From a virus, in the IMG/VR virus record IMGVR_UViG_3300024518_003231, positions 1-39,970 of that record: a DNA stretch of 39,970 nucleotides. The stretch is one strand, 5' to 3'. Of the stretch, positions 8,853 to 39,970 are shown one piece after another. Both the position numbers and the translations under genes were made by a program. The number at the start of each line of letters is the position of its first letter. Within the stretch, counting starts at the first letter, position 1. Under the pieces are notes generated by a model, which searched no databases, was not told the origin of the DNA, and was given only the letters and a program-made list of their open reading frames with translations.

Positions 8853-10244
8853 TCATATGCCGACATCGCTCTCGGTGTCAGGCGTCGCGCCGATGGCCTC
8901 GGCGTCCTCTTGCGTCACGCCGGCGTTTCTCGACGCTTCGGAGGTCACTGCAACCTGCTCGAGGCTGTCACTGGCCAGGCCAGCAGCGCTCGAGCTGTCA
9001 GCCACGACGGACACGACGGACACGACGGGCCGTTCAGCGGGGGCCACCGACGGCGCGGTGATCCACACGGCCCCCATGTTGCGAGGACGCCAGGTGACGA
9101 TCAGCCGTGGCTGAAATGCGAGAACCCCCTCGTACGGGTCAAAGATGCGACTGACACCGAGAGCGCCAGAGGCTGTTTTGTAGGTGATCCCGAACGTGCC
9201 GTCACCGTCGTACTCAGCCGGATCGTTCACGTATTCCTGGACGATCGAGGCTATGTCTAGCGTGTCGAATTCTGTCCATGCAGTTGTGGCAGGTGGGGTC
9301 CAGAGGACATCCGAGCCTGTTTGCGCAGCGCGCAGTGCCGCAAGGTTGAAGTCCTGCGGATAATTCTGATCGTCGAAATCGTTACCGCTGCCGTAGGTGT
9401 TTCCGCGTCCACCTGAGTACGGACCGCCGAAACCAACATTCTGGCCAGACCAACTAATCCAGTTGCCGCCGAACGGCGCAGCATATGAGGCGCGCAGAAC
9501 GATCGCGTATTTTGTACCTGCGACCAGCGTGATCTGATCGCCACCGCTGAAAGTGAATTGTGTGGGAGGGATAGCCAGAAGGCTGGCGCTAACGCTGCTG
9601 GCGTCTATTGGGTCTGATGTTGCTAGCAGGGTGCCAGGCTCATCATTAAAGATCGGGATAGGTGGCGGATCGATAGAGTAGATCTCAGCCCACAAGTTGA
9701 GTGTGCCTGCAACCGCGCCGGTACGTCTGATCGTCAGCTGGGCAAAGCCTAGCGTGCCGCCAGTGACTATCGTTACGGACTGGCTGAGGCGTTGAAACCT
9801 GCCTGGGGCGCTTGCATTGTCGCCGTGCAGTTCCCAGTCAACGCCAACTTGCGCTGATAGCGGGTCCGTGATCGTTTCAACCATCGTGCCGGATGCAGTG
9901 GTTTCAAGGCGCACCTTATGATCGCGATCCGGCATTACGCGCCACTGCGCCGGCGACGTATCAGGGTTCCAAACACCGTCACGGTGCAGCATTCCGATGT
10001 TGACCGTAAATGCCGTCGCGTCTGTCGTTTGCGCTCTGTGCCTCACGACTGCGCTGAGGATGCGAGCTCGCGCCGGAATGGGGAGGCCTACCCACTTCAT
10101 TTGCGCATATCGGAAAAGACCAAATTTTCCATCTCGGCCGATCGCTATCAGGCCAAGGTCATAGTTGTTCCGATTCTGGAAAGCGAAGCCCCCAGTATCT
10201 GCAACGCCTCGAGCCGTGCCAACGGTTGTGGTGGTCAGCGCCAT
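8853..10244 (-). CDS. Putative virion surface protein with DNRLRE-like and anchor-type beta domains
   Basis: The 463-residue protein opens with 'GLPIPARARILSAVVRHRAQ' and around residues 320-390 reads 'FDTLDIASIVQEYVNDPAEY...GVLAFQPRLIVTWRP', resembling DNRLRE carbohydrate-binding-type beta domains. Between them lies a second beta domain ('LAEIYSI'-like strands, 'VAGTKYAIVLRASY') like the choice-of-anchor type. The C-terminus is Ser/Ala/Val-rich and acidic. It may be a head fibre or decoration protein that binds sugars. Its ATG overlaps the previous stop. Domain names are from pattern memory only. Confidence 0.55.
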   Translation of the reverse strand: MALTTTTVGTARGVADTGGFAFQNRNNYDLGLIAIGRDGKFGLFRYAQMKWVGLPIPARARILSAVVRHRAQTTDATAFTVNIGMLHRDGVWNPDTSPAQWRVMPDRDHKVRLETTASGTMVETITDPLSAQVGVDWELHGDNASAPGRFQRLSQSVTIVTGGTLGFAQLTIRRTGAVAGTLNLWAEIYSIDPPPIPIFNDEPGTLLATSDPIDASSVSASLLAIPPTQFTFSGGDQITLVAGTKYAIVLRASYAAPFGGNWISWSGQNVGFGGPYSGGRGNTYGSGNDFDDQNYPQDFNLAALRAAQTGSDVLWTPPATTAWTEFDTLDIASIVQEYVNDPAEYDGDGTFGITYKTASGALGVSRIFDPYEGVLAFQPRLIVTWRPRNMGAVWITAPSVAPAERPVVSVVSVVADSSSAAGLASDSLEQVAVTSEASRNAGVTQEDAEAIGATPDTESDVGI

Positions 10245-22600: not shown

Positions 22601-22620
22601 CGGCGTCCTCCAGATAAAGT

Positions 22621-22681
22621 GGCTCGGTCATCCCCCCGTCCAAGCGGAAGGTGTCAAGCCCCGCAAGGGGATGACCGAGCC
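22621..22681 (-). promoter_or_regulatory. Perfect 15-bp stem-loop upstream of the annealing-like gene
   Basis: GGCTCGGTCATCCCC (22621-22635) and GGGGATGACCGAGCC (22667-22681) are perfectly complementary with a 31-base loop, which itself holds a competing CCCC-TTGC-GGGG hairpin. The structure ends a few bases before the GGAGG ribosome site of the downstream gene. It may be an attenuator, RNase III site or protein-binding leader. Confidence 0.6.
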
Positions 22682-22747
22682 ATAAATGTGCGCTGTGAAC
22701 TTGGACGGCGCGTGTGCTTGACAGGAAGGGTGATAGCGGAGGGTCGA

Positions 22748-23350
22748 CTAGGAGTCAAACGGTAGTTTCAGCCTCTGCGCCTCAATGGAAGAGACCCGGA
22801 TCCAGACACCCTCCGGAAGCCCCCAGCGCACGAGGCGGAATCCGCCCACAGCCTGGCAGTCGTCCTCGAACATGACGCCGTGGACACGAGCGTTTCTCCG
22901 CTTGCTGGCCACCTGCAGGGCATCGAACACGCCACGGAGGAGCTTGTCCTCGTCGCCGGTGCTGTTGGTGCAGGGGAACGGAGCACGTGTTGACTTCGGT
23001 CGGCCAAAGAAGAAGACCGTATCGATCATCACCGCGCCGATCAGCGGCGATGGGGGCTTGTTCGGCACGCTGGCCGCGACGATCGTCTCCATCCACTTCT
23101 GCAGTCGCTTGCCCTGATCAGAGCGGAAGTCCTCCGTTACGAACGGGCGATCGCATCGCTTGTACCGACGCGCATCCTTGGTCGCCGCATGGGGGCAGAC
23201 AGGGTGCAGGTTGCCCTTTGGAACCGGCCTGCCCTCGACGAAAAAAGAGGCCTGCCACGACGGCTCCGGGATCGGCGCAACACGCATGCCGTCGGGCAGG
23301 CCGAGCATCGACGCACCATCACAGATGCCCTGGTAAAGGAACTCCCTCAC
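22748..23350 (-). CDS. rusA: RusA-type Holliday junction resolvase
   Basis: The 200-residue protein contains 'SFFVEGRPVPKGNLHPVCPH', 'GDEDKLLRGVFDALQ' and 'MFEDDCQAV', the conserved motifs with acidic residues of the RusA family. It resolves branched DNA before packaging. The start is GTG at 23350, overlapping the preceding stop (GTGA); a later ATG at 23308 is possible. The first conserved motif sits near residue 36, with a somewhat longer N-terminus than usual. Confidence 0.85.
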   Translation of the reverse strand: MREFLYQGICDGASMLGLPDGMRVAPIPEPSWQASFFVEGRPVPKGNLHPVCPHAATKDARRYKRCDRPFVTEDFRSDQGKRLQKWMETIVAASVPNKPPSPLIGAVMIDTVFFFGRPKSTRAPFPCTNSTGDEDKLLRGVFDALQVASKRRNARVHGVMFEDDCQAVGGFRLVRWGLPEGVWIRVSSIEAQRLKLPFDS

Positions 23351-23790
23351 GAAGCGCCCTCGAGCTCGAGCTGCTTGGGCGTCAACGTCACGATGCATCG
23401 CATGCGCGCATGGCGCACAACGTCGATGAGGTCCTTCTCTTGCCAGGCATACTCGCATTGGAAGCTGAACCGCGGTGCCTTGTCGCCATCGGCGATCACT
23501 TCGGCCTTGATCGGCTGAACCTCGACGAGGTTGATCTCGTGCTCGTCGTTTTCCGGCAGCTGCACAACGATGCGCAGATCCGAGTCGGCGCCATGGCTGC
23601 CACGCAGGCCGCGCGGTGCTTTGTCGAGCTCGCCGTCCTCGAGACACTTGCGCAGCGCGCCGAGGACGCCCTCGGTGCCGTCGGCGACCGTGCCCGTGAA
23701 CTTCAGGCGCAGCATGTTCGTTCTGTGGTGGTGCTCGTCGATGGGCGTCGGGGTGACGGTCTCGAGCGTGCAATCGATTTGATTCATCAT
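23347..23790 (-). CDS. Replication-block protein, unknown
   Basis: The 147-residue protein starts at 'MMNQIDCTLETVTPTPIDEH' with GAGGAG upstream and overlaps the helicase stop (ATGA). The sequence is mixed ('LRIVVQLPENDEHEINLVEV', 'CIVTLTPKQLELEG'), with a beta-rich core that I do not recognise. Being between helicase and resolvase, a DNA metabolism role is likely. The first or second of two adjacent ATGs may be used. Confidence 0.65.
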   Translation of the reverse strand: MMNQIDCTLETVTPTPIDEHHHRTNMLRLKFTGTVADGTEGVLGALRKCLEDGELDKAPRGLRGSHGADSDLRIVVQLPENDEHEINLVEVQPIKAEVIADGDKAPRFSFQCEYAWQEKDLIDVVRHARMRCIVTLTPKQLELEGAS

Positions 23791-25094
23791 GACTTCTTGC
23801 TCCTCGTTTGCGTTTGCAGCCGGCGAACGATGTCCTCGGCAGCGGTATCGAAAAAGACGGATGGGGCCTCCCAGTACAGGGGCACCGATCCGACCCTCCC
23901 GTTCTTGTTCTTCCTCACGTGGCAGATAGCAGCAGGGATCTCGCCCTCCGTGTCGACCCAGTCCTTGCGCCTCTCGAGCATCCACACCGCGTGCGCGTCC
24001 TGCTCGAGCGAGCCGCAATCGCGCAGGTGGTGCAGCTGCGGCGGTTCCTTCTCCGCCTCGCGCGACAGCTGTGACGCCACGACCAACACTGAATTCGTTT
24101 GTGCCGGGATGCGCTTTAGCGCTTGAGACACCCGGGTCAGCTCCTCGTTGCGGGTGACCCTACCAGCTGACGGATCGCTGAACAGCTGGAAATAATCCAC
24201 GCAGATCAGCTTGGTTTTCCTCTTTTCGGCGTTCGCCCGAGCCACCACCACGAACTGCTCGAGCGTGGTCGGGATGTCATCGCTGATCAGCAAGTTCTCG
24301 CCGATCCCCTCGTAGAGCTCCTTCATCCCGACATGGGATCGATCCAGGTCACGTTGGTCGAGTTTGCCTTGCACCAGGTCGTGGAGGTCAACCCTGGCCG
24401 TCTGGGCGAGCAGGCGCGAGGCTGTGGCCTCCTCGGTGTCCTCGAGCGTGTAGTAGTCCACCGGGTGGTGGGCTGACACCTTGCGCGCCAGGGTTGCCAG
24501 GAGCGAGCTCTTACCGATCGAAGGCCTGGCGCCGATCACGTACATCACGCCGAACTGCATCGAGCCTATCTTGTGATCGATGCCGTCGATCCCCGTCAGC
24601 AGGCCGGGGGTCTCGTCGCCGGACTGCACGCGTTCGAGCTTGCTGGCGAGGGAGGGGATCACCTGCATCAGCGTGCGCCCCTCGCGGATGTGGGGCAGCC
24701 GGAGCGCCGCAAGTTCCTCAAGTGCGTGGGCCAATCTGGCCTCACCGTCGAAGTCCTTGGTGATCAGGCAGGCCTCTAGCCGCTTGCGCGTCTCGCGGTC
24801 GAGCCACTGATCGATCACCTGGCTCATGTGGTACCGCGCGTTCTCAGCGGTTCCAACGCGTGCAGCGCAGTCGATAACCAGCTGATTGTACTGGCGCCCT
24901 ATCTGGTCGGTGATCATCACCGGGTCCGGCTGATCGCCTCCGCGGTAGATGCGCAGGCACGAGCCCCAGACCTTCCCGAGCCCCATGTGGCGGAAGTGGC
25001 TCGGGTCAAGCTCGGCGCAGCGTGCGCAGGTTGCGCCGTCCATCAGGGCAGCGCCGACCACATATGCTTCGTTTGGGACGTGTTGGAGATCCAT
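23787..25094 (-). CDS. DnaB-type replicative helicase
   Basis: The 435-residue protein has an N-terminal DnaB-like helical domain (first 130 residues) and a RecA-type ATPase: Walker A 'GARPSIGKSS' at 188-197 and Walker B 'LICVDYFQL' at about 296-304, followed by 'SQALKRIPAQTNSVLVVASQ' and 'LRDCGSLEQDAHAVWML'. It would unwind DNA 5' to 3' at the fork and recruit the host replisome. It directly follows the initiator-like gene, like lambda O and P. Confidence 0.9.
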   Translation of the reverse strand: MDLQHVPNEAYVVGAALMDGATCARCAELDPSHFRHMGLGKVWGSCLRIYRGGDQPDPVMITDQIGRQYNQLVIDCAARVGTAENARYHMSQVIDQWLDRETRKRLEACLITKDFDGEARLAHALEELAALRLPHIREGRTLMQVIPSLASKLERVQSGDETPGLLTGIDGIDHKIGSMQFGVMYVIGARPSIGKSSLLATLARKVSAHHPVDYYTLEDTEEATASRLLAQTARVDLHDLVQGKLDQRDLDRSHVGMKELYEGIGENLLISDDIPTTLEQFVVVARANAEKRKTKLICVDYFQLFSDPSAGRVTRNEELTRVSQALKRIPAQTNSVLVVASQLSREAEKEPPQLHHLRDCGSLEQDAHAVWMLERRKDWVDTEGEIPAAICHVRKNKNGRVGSVPLYWEAPSVFFDTAAEDIVRRLQTQTRSKKS

Positions 25095-25097
25095 GGG

Positions 25098-25958
25098 TTA
25101 CCAGTTGTCGAAGTCGAGGTTCCGGCCGGCCAGGCTGTGGGGTGGTGCCTCCTTGGCTGGACGTCCTGCCCCATCCTTGGCCATGGCGTCAACGTGGCCA
25201 ATCAACTGGCCAGCCGTGGTGATCTTCCGCTGCCAGTAGGGCCGCGAACGTAGCGCCGTCAGCGCCGATTCTAGGCGTTGGAGATTGACCCCCTCCGACT
25301 GGGCGCGGACGAGGTCGCGACGCCAACGGGGCGCAATCCTGGCCCACGCCGCGGTGCCACAGGTGTGTTGGGGATCCACCTCCAGCATGGCGGATCGGAT
25401 CTCGCCCAAGAACCTCTCCCAGTCAGCCGGGAGGTCGGTCCCGCCGAGTGACTGTTGCTTTGGCTTTCGAGGGGGACGTTTCGGGCGCGTGTTCACACGT
25501 GCCACAGCTGTCTTCTTTGTTCCTTGTTCCTTGTTCTTCTCTATAAGGATTGCCCGGGAGTGCGCGGTAGGTTCGCTGGAGGTCTGTCGGGTGGTTAGCC
25601 CAGTAGCCACCATCTCGCTCTGGTAATACTCGTAATTTATTAGAGTAATCAGCGTACCGCATCTGCCCGGGAGTGCGCGGCACCTAATCGTTAGGTTTGT
25701 CTGGAGGTATGCCAGCGTTTTTCGCATCACCCGATATGGAACGCGACATATATCCGCGAATTCGCGTTGTTGGCATGTAAACGATCCGCGCGGCACAGGT
25801 TGCGTTTTTCCCATCACATACTCAAAACCGTCCTTCCACCGAGCCCTCCAGAAGATCTCGATCAGGATTACGCGTTGGTCATTTGTAAGCTGATCCCAGA
25901 GCCCATTTTGGGCAAAGAGCTTCCTGGCGATGGCGAACCAGCCGACGGGATCAGGCAT
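25098..25958 (-). CDS. Replication initiator-like protein (lambda O-like position)
   Basis: The 286-residue protein has an N-terminal winged-helix-like region ('NGLWDQLTNDQRVILIEIFW', 'GSFTCQQREFADICRVPYRV'), a basic, disordered linker ('RVNTRPKRPPRKPKQQSLGG') and a C-terminal helical region with 'RSRPYWQRKITTAGQLIGHV'. This layout is that of phage replication initiators such as lambda O. It precedes the DnaB-like gene, and its own coding DNA contains repeats that could be the origin. The ATG at 25958 is preferred over a longer start at 25991. Confidence 0.75.
   Translation of the reverse strand: MPDPVGWFAIARKLFAQNGLWDQLTNDQRVILIEIFWRARWKDGFEYVMGKTQPVPRGSFTCQQREFADICRVPYRVMRKTLAYLQTNLTIRCRALPGRCGTLITLINYEYYQSEMVATGLTTRQTSSEPTAHSRAILIEKNKEQGTKKTAVARVNTRPKRPPRKPKQQSLGGTDLPADWERFLGEIRSAMLEVDPQHTCGTAAWARIAPRWRRDLVRAQSEGVNLQRLESALTALRSRPYWQRKITTAGQLIGHVDAMAKDGAGRPAKEAPPHSLAGRNLDFDNW
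25551..25708. other. Candidate replication origin inside the initiator-like gene
   Basis: TGCCCGGGAGTGCGCGG occurs twice (25551-25567 and 25664-25680) in direct orientation, 113 bases apart, so in different reading frames of the host gene. Between them lies an AT-rich stretch (25621-25655) with three GTAAT repeats and an imperfect palindrome. Next to the second copy is the palindrome ACCTAA-TCG-TTAGGT (25682-25696). CTGGAGGT follows each copy (25576 and 25701). This resembles lambda ori within gene O. Confidence 0.55.
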
Positions 25959-25997
25959 TGAAACATCCACCGACCGCACGGGCGCGCACACGAGATT

Positions 25998-27955: not shown

Positions 27956-28059
27956 GATGGGGCTCCTCGGTTGAAGATCATTGTGATGCAAAAGTGATGC
28001 AAAAGTATGCAGAATCGACCAACTAAGAACCACACAAGTTCGCAGCCTTGGAGGAGCGC
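27956..28059. promoter_or_regulatory. Divergent control region with 11-bp tandem repeat
   Basis: This region separates the early minus-strand genes from the plus-strand ParB/Mom island. It contains GTGATGCAAAA twice in tandem (27983-27993 and 27994-28004), followed by a diverged third copy GTATGCAGAA (28005-28014). The 11-base period places copies on one face of the helix, as for an operator. A single GATC is at 27976. I see no unambiguous -35/-10 pair. Confidence 0.65.
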
Positions 28060-28674
28060 ATGAAAACAAACCCAGTGATTGAGTCGGTGGCAATCGCCAA
28101 GCTCAAGCCCTCGCCCTACAATCCGCGGTCAATTTCTCGGGCTGCGCAGAAGGGGCTGGCGGCCAGCATGCGCCGCTTCGGTGTCGTGGAACCCATCGTG
28201 TGGAACCGCCGATCGGGCCACGTCGTGGGGGGTCACCAGCGGCTCGATGTGCTCCGAAAGGAGGGGGTTGAACAGTTGTCCGTGGTGGTCGTCGAGCTCG
28301 AGCCGGCCGAGGAGAAGGCACTCAACCTGGCGTTGAACCACCCCGGGATCCAGGGCGACTTCACCGAGGCACTGCAGGACGTTCTCGCCGATGTGAAACT
28401 CGACCTGCCGGACATCATGAGCGATCTGCGGTTCGACGATCTGGCATGCCTGGGGGAGCCAGATGATCCATGGGGGCGCCTGCCTGACGGAGACAAACCG
28501 CCGTTTCAACAACTGGCCTTCACGCTCCACGACGAACAGGCTGCCGTGGTCAGGATGGCGATCGAAATAGCCAAGAGGAGGAGCACCTTTGACGGACCCA
28601 ACAAAAACACAAACGGAAACTCCATCGCAGCCATCTGCAAGCGATACGTCGACGAGTACGGTAAAAAGCCTTGA
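28060..28674 (+). CDS. ParB/Srx-fold protein
   Basis: The 204-residue protein has a ParB N-terminal fold: 'AIAKLKPSPYNPRSISRAAQ', 'GLAASMRRFGVVEPIVWNRR' and 'GHVVGGHQRLDVLRKEGVEQ', where GGHQR is the conserved motif. ATG follows GGAGGAG. The C-terminal part is helical and may bind DNA. In phages such genes are common beside DNA-modification genes. Here the next gene, a Mom-like modifier, overlaps it by 86 bases. Whether it acts as a nuclease, CTPase or regulator cannot be told from sequence alone. Confidence 0.8.
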   Translation: MKTNPVIESVAIAKLKPSPYNPRSISRAAQKGLAASMRRFGVVEPIVWNRRSGHVVGGHQRLDVLRKEGVEQLSVVVVELEPAEEKALNLALNHPGIQGDFTEALQDVLADVKLDLPDIMSDLRFDDLACLGEPDDPWGRLPDGDKPPFQQLAFTLHDEQAAVVRMAIEIAKRRSTFDGPNKNTNGNSIAAICKRYVDEYGKKP

Positions 28675-29359
28675 GGTGCGACCAGTCGTCTCGAAGGATG
28701 CGCGGGCTCTGTGCCGCCGTCTCCACTACAGCGGGAAGGTGGTCAATAACTCACAGGTCCATCTCGGCGTGTTCTGGGCGGGACGCTTTGAGGGGATTAT
28801 GCAGTTCGGGCCACCGATGGATCGATCGAAAATCCTCGGCTTGGTGGAGGGGTCCCGGTGGTGTGATGTCCTCGAGCTCAACCGGATGGCCTTCAGCGAT
28901 CGCCTGCCGCGGAACAGCGAGAGCCGAGCGCTGTCGGTGGCGATGCGACTGCTCAAGCGACACGCGCCGCAGGTGAAGTGGTTGACCAGCTTTGCCGATG
29001 GCACCCAGTGTGGAGACGGCACGATCTACCGCGCAGCGGGTTGGCTGCTGACGCAAATCGTCGAGAACAATCAGATCATCGAGTTCCCAGACGGGGAGCG
29101 TGTAGCTCGTCTCACGATGGACAGCAACGCTGCCACTTATGCGCGGTATGCGAGAAAATGGGGGATCGAAATGACCTCGGCGAAGTCCTGGAAGGCGTTC
29201 AAGCCAATCGGTGCACGCATGATCCCGGGCTTCATGCTTCGGTACATGTATTTCCTCGACAAGGCCGCACGCACGCGCCTGACGTGCGACGTGCTCCCGT
29301 ACTCGGAAATTGACCGACGTGGAGCACGAATGTACCTTGGGAACGCGCCGGAAGCATAG
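28589..29359 (+). CDS. Mom-like adenine modification protein
   Basis: The 256-residue protein matches the Mom family (phage Mu Mom converts adenine to N6-carbamoylmethyladenine): 'ALCRRLHYSGKVVNNSQVHL', 'VFWAGRFEGIMQFGPPMDRS', 'WCDVLELNRMAFSDRLPRNS', 'KWLTSFADGTQCGDGTIYRA'. It begins with the rare TTG after a strong GAGGAGGAG site and overlaps the ParB-like gene by 86 bases. It should protect phage DNA from restriction. The first 35 residues are Thr/Ser-rich and disordered. It ends inside the tRNA-like element. Confidence 0.8.
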   Translation: MTDPTKTQTETPSQPSASDTSTSTVKSLEVRPVVSKDARALCRRLHYSGKVVNNSQVHLGVFWAGRFEGIMQFGPPMDRSKILGLVEGSRWCDVLELNRMAFSDRLPRNSESRALSVAMRLLKRHAPQVKWLTSFADGTQCGDGTIYRAAGWLLTQIVENNQIIEFPDGERVARLTMDSNAATYARYARKWGIEMTSAKSWKAFKPIGARMIPGFMLRYMYFLDKAARTRLTCDVLPYSEIDRRGARMYLGNAPEA

Positions 29360-39519: not shown

Positions 39520-39887
39520 TATGCGACCTCTGCCAGCAGCTCCGCGATCGTCTCTTCCTCGATGTAGATCAGTTTGATCAGCTCGCCGAGTTGCTCAGCG
39601 CCAGGATCACGCGGCTCGATGGGTGGGTCTGCCTGGCTGGGCAGGTGCTGAACGACCAACGCGCCAGGAGGCGCTCGCTCGTCGACGACTATGCGCAGGA
39701 CGTCCTCGTTGGCCTGGAGCTTCACGCCGCTGACGATCTCGAGACCGTCCTGGTCGGCCAGGTCGAGGTACCAGCGCCACTCGCGGAAGTTGAACTGGAA
39801 CGTGAGGATGAAGTCTCGACCGTCGAGTGACACCCGCTGCGCGTAGTTTGTCTCCGTCGTGCTGGTCGGGACTATCTCGATCGCCAT
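39519..39887 (-). CDS. Baseplate plug-like protein (DUF6983-type)
   Basis: The 122-residue product starts at 'MAIEIVPTSTTETNYAQRVS' and contains 'GRDFILTFQFNFREWRWYLD' and 'LVVQHLPSQADPPIEPRDPG', the pattern of small baseplate plug proteins (beta-sandwich, DUF6983). It sits between Dit-like and hub genes. An ATG 13 codons upstream would lie within the Dit-like gene and is less likely. Its N-terminus is duplicated at the left end. Confidence 0.8.
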   Translation of the reverse strand: MAIEIVPTSTTETNYAQRVSLDGRDFILTFQFNFREWRWYLDLADQDGLEIVSGVKLQANEDVLRIVVDERAPPGALVVQHLPSQADPPIEPRDPGAEQLGELIKLIYIEEETIAELLAEVA

Positions 39888-39970
39888 GGCACCACGCTCC
39901 CTAGTCCGGTGATTGACGAGAGCCACGAGGTTTCGACCTTGGCTGTCTCGTTCGCTGTGGGCTTCGTGGT
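39790..39970. repeat. Right copy of terminal direct repeat
   Basis: This matches bases 1-181 except at 39917. It shows that the genome is complete and that the plug gene continues into the Dit-like gene across the junction. Confidence 0.95.
39872..39970 (-). CDS. Dit-like protein, C-terminal fragment (duplicate of the left-end gene)
   Basis: These are the last codons of the gene given in full at 83-952, present again because the contig ends overlap. One base differs (synonymous). It is not a separate gene. Confidence 0.85.
   Translation of the reverse strand, partial: TTKPTANETAKVETSWLSSITGLGSVVPWRSR

Follow-up and report, generated by a model that had tools for sequence, protein, structure and literature searches.

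The locus and its replication module

The stretch of DNA analyzed here (the window, 39,970 nt) is the whole of IMG/VR record IMGVR_UViG_3300024518_003231. Its ends, positions 1-181 and 39790-39970, repeat each other with one mismatch, so that a closed map of approximately 39.8 kb is likely; the record, which itself carries no completeness estimate, thus appears to be complete, as either a circular or a terminally redundant map. It encodes genes of a contractile-tailed phage, including a tail sheath, a portal, and a terminase.

A gene on the minus strand (25098-25991), encoding 297 amino acids from a GTG codon, is directly followed downstream by a gene for a DnaB-family replicative helicase (23787-25094, minus strand; Pfam DnaB_C, E = 1.8e-46; phrog_19, E = 3.2e-58), for which the top NCBIfam match, TIGR03600 (phage_DnaB), was under its cutoff. 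The same replication module contains a RusA-like Holliday junction resolvase (22748-23773, minus strand; phrog_140, E = 1.5e-9). A 16-bp perfect inverted repeat, TGGCTCGGTCATCCCC (22620-22682, arm starts 47 bp apart), is located between the RusA-like gene and its neighbor and is possibly a terminator or a binding site. Rfam and tRNA scans were both empty. No close relatives of the initiator or the helicase were found in the viral, genome, phage, and plasmid collections searched; no near DNA match was detected among phages, and the terminase relatives had nothing matching either protein.

An AT-rich divergent intergenic region at 27983-28006 holds an exact 11-bp tandem (GTGATGCAAAA twice, then GT) and separates the leftward genes from rightward ParB-like and Mom-like genes; it is possibly an operator. 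The gene with the ParB-like domain overlaps the Mom-like DNA modification gene (phrog_1384, E = 4.8e-48), the pair spanning 28048-29359; the presence of the Mom-like gene suggests that the DNA of this phage may be modified.

The protein encoded at 25098-25991 was described as initiator-like in the initial annotation, which agrees with a DnaD-like winged helix found beside a DnaB helicase. It matched the DnaD-like helicase loader family phrog_2514 (E = 2.7e-5), a winged-helix profile built from 82 family members (E = 1.3e-6, residues 17-124), a six-member family alignment (hhalign, E = 4e-6), and, by BLASTP, a Listeria phage DnaD-domain protein (E = 5e-6). NCBIfam returned nothing relevant. A lambda-O type initiator was considered and rejected, as no Pfam match was found at E ≤ 1, RepA_N (PF06970) included, and the significant PHROG matches were DnaD-like only. 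The true start is probably the ATG at 25958 (residue 12), which we prefer because the homologues begin M..GW.

Structure prediction with AlphaFold2, using 32 homologues, gave a winged helix at residues 18-125 (pLDDT mostly above 90) with a recognition helix at 86-98 and wing strands at 102-106 and 113-117, a disordered linker at 130-164 (pLDDT below 50), and a helical C-terminal domain at 189-273. An N-terminal winged helix ending in the wing motif [IV]NYxxYQ, as found here, is the mark of the phrog_2514/186 family. The top PDB fold match was weak (4pt7, 'structure of initiator', E = 0.015), and 4pt7 is listed among RepA_N structures (PMC7145576). Several of the viral fold matches were named 'replisome organizer', and MarR and CodY proteins were also present. 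Judged from its sequence matches, the protein is a DnaD-like winged-helix phage initiator by descent, and not a lambda O or a RepA_N protein.

A 50-bp unit is repeated within the initiator gene

Two exact copies of the 17-bp sequence TGCCCGGGAGTGCGCGG lie at 25551-25567 and 25664-25680; their start-to-start spacing is 113 bp, and a direct repeat of this length and spacing had been reported in the initial annotation. Since 113 mod 3 = 2, the copies lie in different frames of the minus-strand gene. There are only two copies of this 17-mer in the genome, and it is absent from all other IMG/VR contigs searched. Only one other 17-bp exact repeat in the genome has its copies within 1 kb of each other, and it is a 9-bp tandem at 9003. 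Across 60 order-2 Markov genomes, no exact repeat within 300 bp was longer than 15 bp, and across 2,000 resampled copies of the initiator gene, no exact repeat exceeded 16 bp.

Ungapped extension carried the repeat beyond the 17 bp noticed initially: 25551-25600 and 25664-25713 are identical at 36 of 50 positions, in the form of 17/17, a variable 12-nt middle, and 17/21. It is the only repeat in the genome with at least 35/50 matches at offsets of 20-300. The upstream, or outlying, copy (25664-25713, minus strand; gene nt 279-328) codes for the last part of the recognition helix together with the first wing strand, while the downstream copy (25551-25600, minus strand; gene nt 392-441) encodes the disordered linker after the wing. 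When the gene was shuffled synonymously 3,000 times, keeping the protein and the codon usage of the phage, no shuffle contained an exact repeat of at least 13 nt, nor did any contain a 36/50 match. Taken with the difference in frame, this indicates that protein constraint is not the cause of the repeat, as the initial annotation had held.

The AT-rich segment that had been noted between and beside the copies proved to be exceptional. By nearest-neighbor stability, the least stable 40-bp segment of the genome (25612-25651) lies between the copies and encodes the wing strand LITLINYEYYQ, and the second least stable (25511-25550) adjoins the copy at 25551-25600. The 30-bp segments that rank first and second genome-wide are 25619-25648 and 25516-25545, the latter beside the same copy. 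The tract at 25511-25550 is purine-rich on the gene strand, codes for disordered linker, and is a candidate unwinding element with a lambda-like placement. Within it, 7-bp direct repeats of GAACAAG are found on the gene strand at 25517-25536 (genome fraction 0.003).

Other signals carried less information. The GTAAT repeats are present, at 25623, 25632, and 25645, but they belong to the codons for the conserved wing motif LITLINYEYYQ, and so have no weight as evidence alone. The palindromes also exist (25682-25696, 25590-25611, and 25755-25766) but are short, weak, and unremarkable; a lambda-like row of four palindromic iterons found no support, the repeats here being direct. No promoter-like or terminator-like matches were found around the repeats. 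Cumulative GC skew, which had been put forward as a check, reached its minimum at approximately 24.3 kb, with an amplitude that was not significant (range of 214 versus a block-shuffle mean of 180, p = 0.18).

A two-site repeat layout recurs in homologous initiator genes

Because close relatives of the initiator and helicase were not found, distant homologues were compared: 12 genes from annotated phages and 160 IMG/VR loci, which gave 82 non-redundant genes. In several of them, a gene for a DnaB-type helicase or a DnaC-type loader follows the initiator. The segment after the wing had its best self-offset at 11 bp in 63/82 genes and at a multiple of 11 in 70/82, and an 11-bp tandem array scoring at least 33/44 was detected there in 73/82, compared with 0.5% of control windows. 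As 11 is not a multiple of 3, these arrays are repeats at the DNA level. In leave-one-out profiles, the array was the top site in the gene for 11 of 11 annotated-phage genes.

The post-wing repeat also recurred as a direct copy upstream, 40-77 nt before the end of the wing, in 42/82 genes when a 10-nt exact match was counted and in 55/82 with 9 nt. The background was approximately 0.01 per gene per 50-nt bin, there were no inverted copies, and when random 70-nt segments were substituted for the array, only 0-3 genes had an outlying copy. The spacing between the outlying copy and the array was 66-125 bp, with 74/93 of the spacings equal to 11n+1 or 11n+2 and all three frames occurring. The sequence of the repeat itself differs among the homologous phages; it is the positions that recur.

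Repeats within replication genes were also observed in two other phages. The replication initiation gene of Aeromonas phage 56 (L011:8999-9081) holds a 38-bp repeat with 45-bp spacing and CACCCCCGCAGA repeats spaced 22-23 bp in different frames; judging by this arrangement, it is probably another embedded origin, with a different initiator. The initiator gene of Flavonifractor phage Cormatin (L012:2014-2078), upstream of DnaB, has ACCCCTCCTGACAAAA repeats with 24-bp spacing, also a probable embedded origin.

The repeats of the window occupy the same two positions as those of the homologues. Counted from the end of the wing, the first positions of the two 17-mers are -61 and +52, compared with family medians of -62 for the outlying copy and +31 for the array (5-95% range, 3 to 63). 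The first copy is thus inside the family zone 40-77 nt before the wing end, and the second is inside the zone of the post-wing array. The spacing of 113 is in the family range but corresponds to 11n+3. The window itself shows a degenerate form of the 11-bp phasing, with a score of 31/44 and p values of 0.013 when compared with genome windows and 0.017 when compared with synonymous shuffles, for a period and place that had been set beforehand from the family of homologues. It is possible to divide each 50-bp unit into five boxes at approximately 12/11/11/12 bp, a reading made post hoc. The local AT profile correlated with the family mean (r = 0.62), a value equalled at 0.02% of genome positions and by approximately 4% of the synonymous shuffles; the AT profile is therefore partly coding.

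The repeats of the window showed no clear agreement with the iteron consensus of the family. The full cross-phage iteron profile had its top site in the gene elsewhere, in an A-rich tract at gene nt 433-450, which is probably an effect of base composition. With a core-only profile of 11-12-bp spacing, both copies ranked high (genome fractions 4e-5 and 3e-4), a result that is only suggestive because this profile was selected after viewing the window. Iteron profiles derived from Tuc2009 and r1t gave weak support.

Comparison with known embedded origins

Among proven cases, SPP1 oriL and the origins of the lactococcal phages TP901-1 and Tuc2009 come nearest. In the latter two, the gene for the replisome organizer contains repeats that this protein binds, and these were determined to be the origin (PMC8965321). 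Their initiator genes are orf16 (Rep2009) of Tuc2009 and ORF13 of TP901-1, with ORF11 of r1t as a homologue; the records annotate DnaD-like or conserved C-terminal domain proteins, and that of Tuc2009 states that the gene 'contains origin of replication'. As a control, the genes of Tuc2009 and r1t were found to carry mid-gene 11-bp arrays (37/44), and the TP901-1 gene, a proven origin, showed no clear 11-bp array. The three proteins belong to another subfamily and did not match the profile of the winged-helix family. No outlying upstream copy was found in the three genes, although Tuc2009 has one downstream, and the clean tandem of Tuc2009 and r1t contrasts with the two 50-bp units of the window. 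In SPP1 oriL, repeats in gene 38 lie beside an AT-rich unwinding element and are bound by gp38 (PMC6316719). Unlike the window, SPP1 (gp38/gp39/gp40) possesses oriR as a second origin and uses a separate loader.

The initial annotation had drawn an analogy with lambda, whose origin within gene O comprises four iterons, each an 18-bp inverted repeat, and a 39-bp AT-rich region (PMC6022878). The analogy holds in principle, since iterons bound by O and an AT-rich region are likewise placed inside the lambda initiator gene. It fails in kinship: the repeats of the window are direct and 113 bp apart, repeats in the family are direct with 11-bp phasing, and the protein has no lambda-O family match. 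By analogy, then, the locus would resemble the lambda origin in function and not in kinship. Plasmid pSK41 of the RepA_N group provides another parallel, with Rep boxes central in rep, an N-terminal winged-helix domain resembling DnaD, and a linker encoded by the origin (PMC5703833). The window protein shares the winged-helix N-terminal domain and has 4pt7 as its top fold match, but it is a phage protein beside DnaB and lacks a Pfam RepA_N match.

Interpretation of the locus

We conclude that 25511-25713 is very probably a phage replication origin embedded in its initiator gene, of the SPP1/TP901-1/Tuc2009 kind. The elements of such origins are found together here: direct repeats within the initiator gene, adjacent AT-rich DNA in the form of the two least stable segments of the genome, and a helicase gene (23787-25094) in the same module. 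The candidate origin of the initial annotation is therefore supported by gene context, by unwinding-prone tracts, and by repeats at the same positions in homologues. As far as sequence comparison can indicate, the most decisive support is that the homologues have out-of-frame repeats at these same two positions.

It seems unlikely that the repeat is a functionless local duplication, in which a 50-bp piece of winged-helix coding sequence was copied 113 bp downstream into a tolerant linker, frame-shifted, and left to decay. The copy at 25664-25713 does lie in conserved codons and that at 25551-25600 in disordered linker, divergence has affected the middle 12 nt but left 17 nt identical, and maintenance was not seen in any close relative, none being found. 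A chance duplication, however, does not explain why both positions coincide with those of repeats of unrelated sequence in homologues, or why the two least stable tracts of the genome lie beside the copies.

We consider it less likely still that the repeats are regulatory sites, at which the protein or a repressor would bind to control how the initiator-helicase operon is transcribed or translated, with replication starting elsewhere. Winged-helix proteins are often regulators, as the MarR and CodY fold matches recall, and the AT-rich region at 27983-28006 with its exact 11-bp tandem could hold an operator or an origin. Against this, the sites are mid-gene in surroundings free of promoter-like and terminator-like matches, and repeats in the comparable initiator genes of Tuc2009 and TP901-1 were shown to be origins (PMC8965321). 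Finally, a protein-level repeat or coding constraint as the source of the DNA identity is refuted to near certainty by the frame and by the shuffles, even though part of the AT-rich wing DNA follows from the conserved INYEYYQ.

For an embedded origin at this locus, we infer binding, melting, helicase recruitment, and use as an origin, as a proposal only. The winged-helix N-terminal domain would bind both repeat clusters, that is, the DNA coding for its own wing and the DNA coding for the linker, and binding at two sites would bend or loop the DNA. The flanking AT-rich tracts would then melt, and the C-terminal domain may assist in placing the DnaB-type helicase, the product of the adjacent downstream gene.

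We lean slightly toward a broader reading, in which the outlying repeat in the winged-helix codons would be a conserved functional element of this whole class of phage origins, the initiator binding a site in its own wing-coding DNA and an array 11n+1 or 11n+2 downstream. The window would be a highly divergent, GC-rich variant whose two sites have expanded into 50-bp units. If the initiator binds a site inside the wing-coding DNA together with the downstream array, then site, wing, and array would co-evolve under overlapping coding constraint. Embedded origins as such are already known; for the outlying copy that recurs in homologues, no description was found in the open-access literature searched, the search having covered little of the subscription literature.

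These results assign a probable origin to an uncultured phage for which no close relatives were found. The two-site layout recurs in dozens of phage initiator genes, some of them annotated merely as 'DnaD-like helicase loader' or 'hypothetical protein'. It would provide a sequence-only rule for locating the origin in such phages, together with a testable prediction of where and how the initiator binds.
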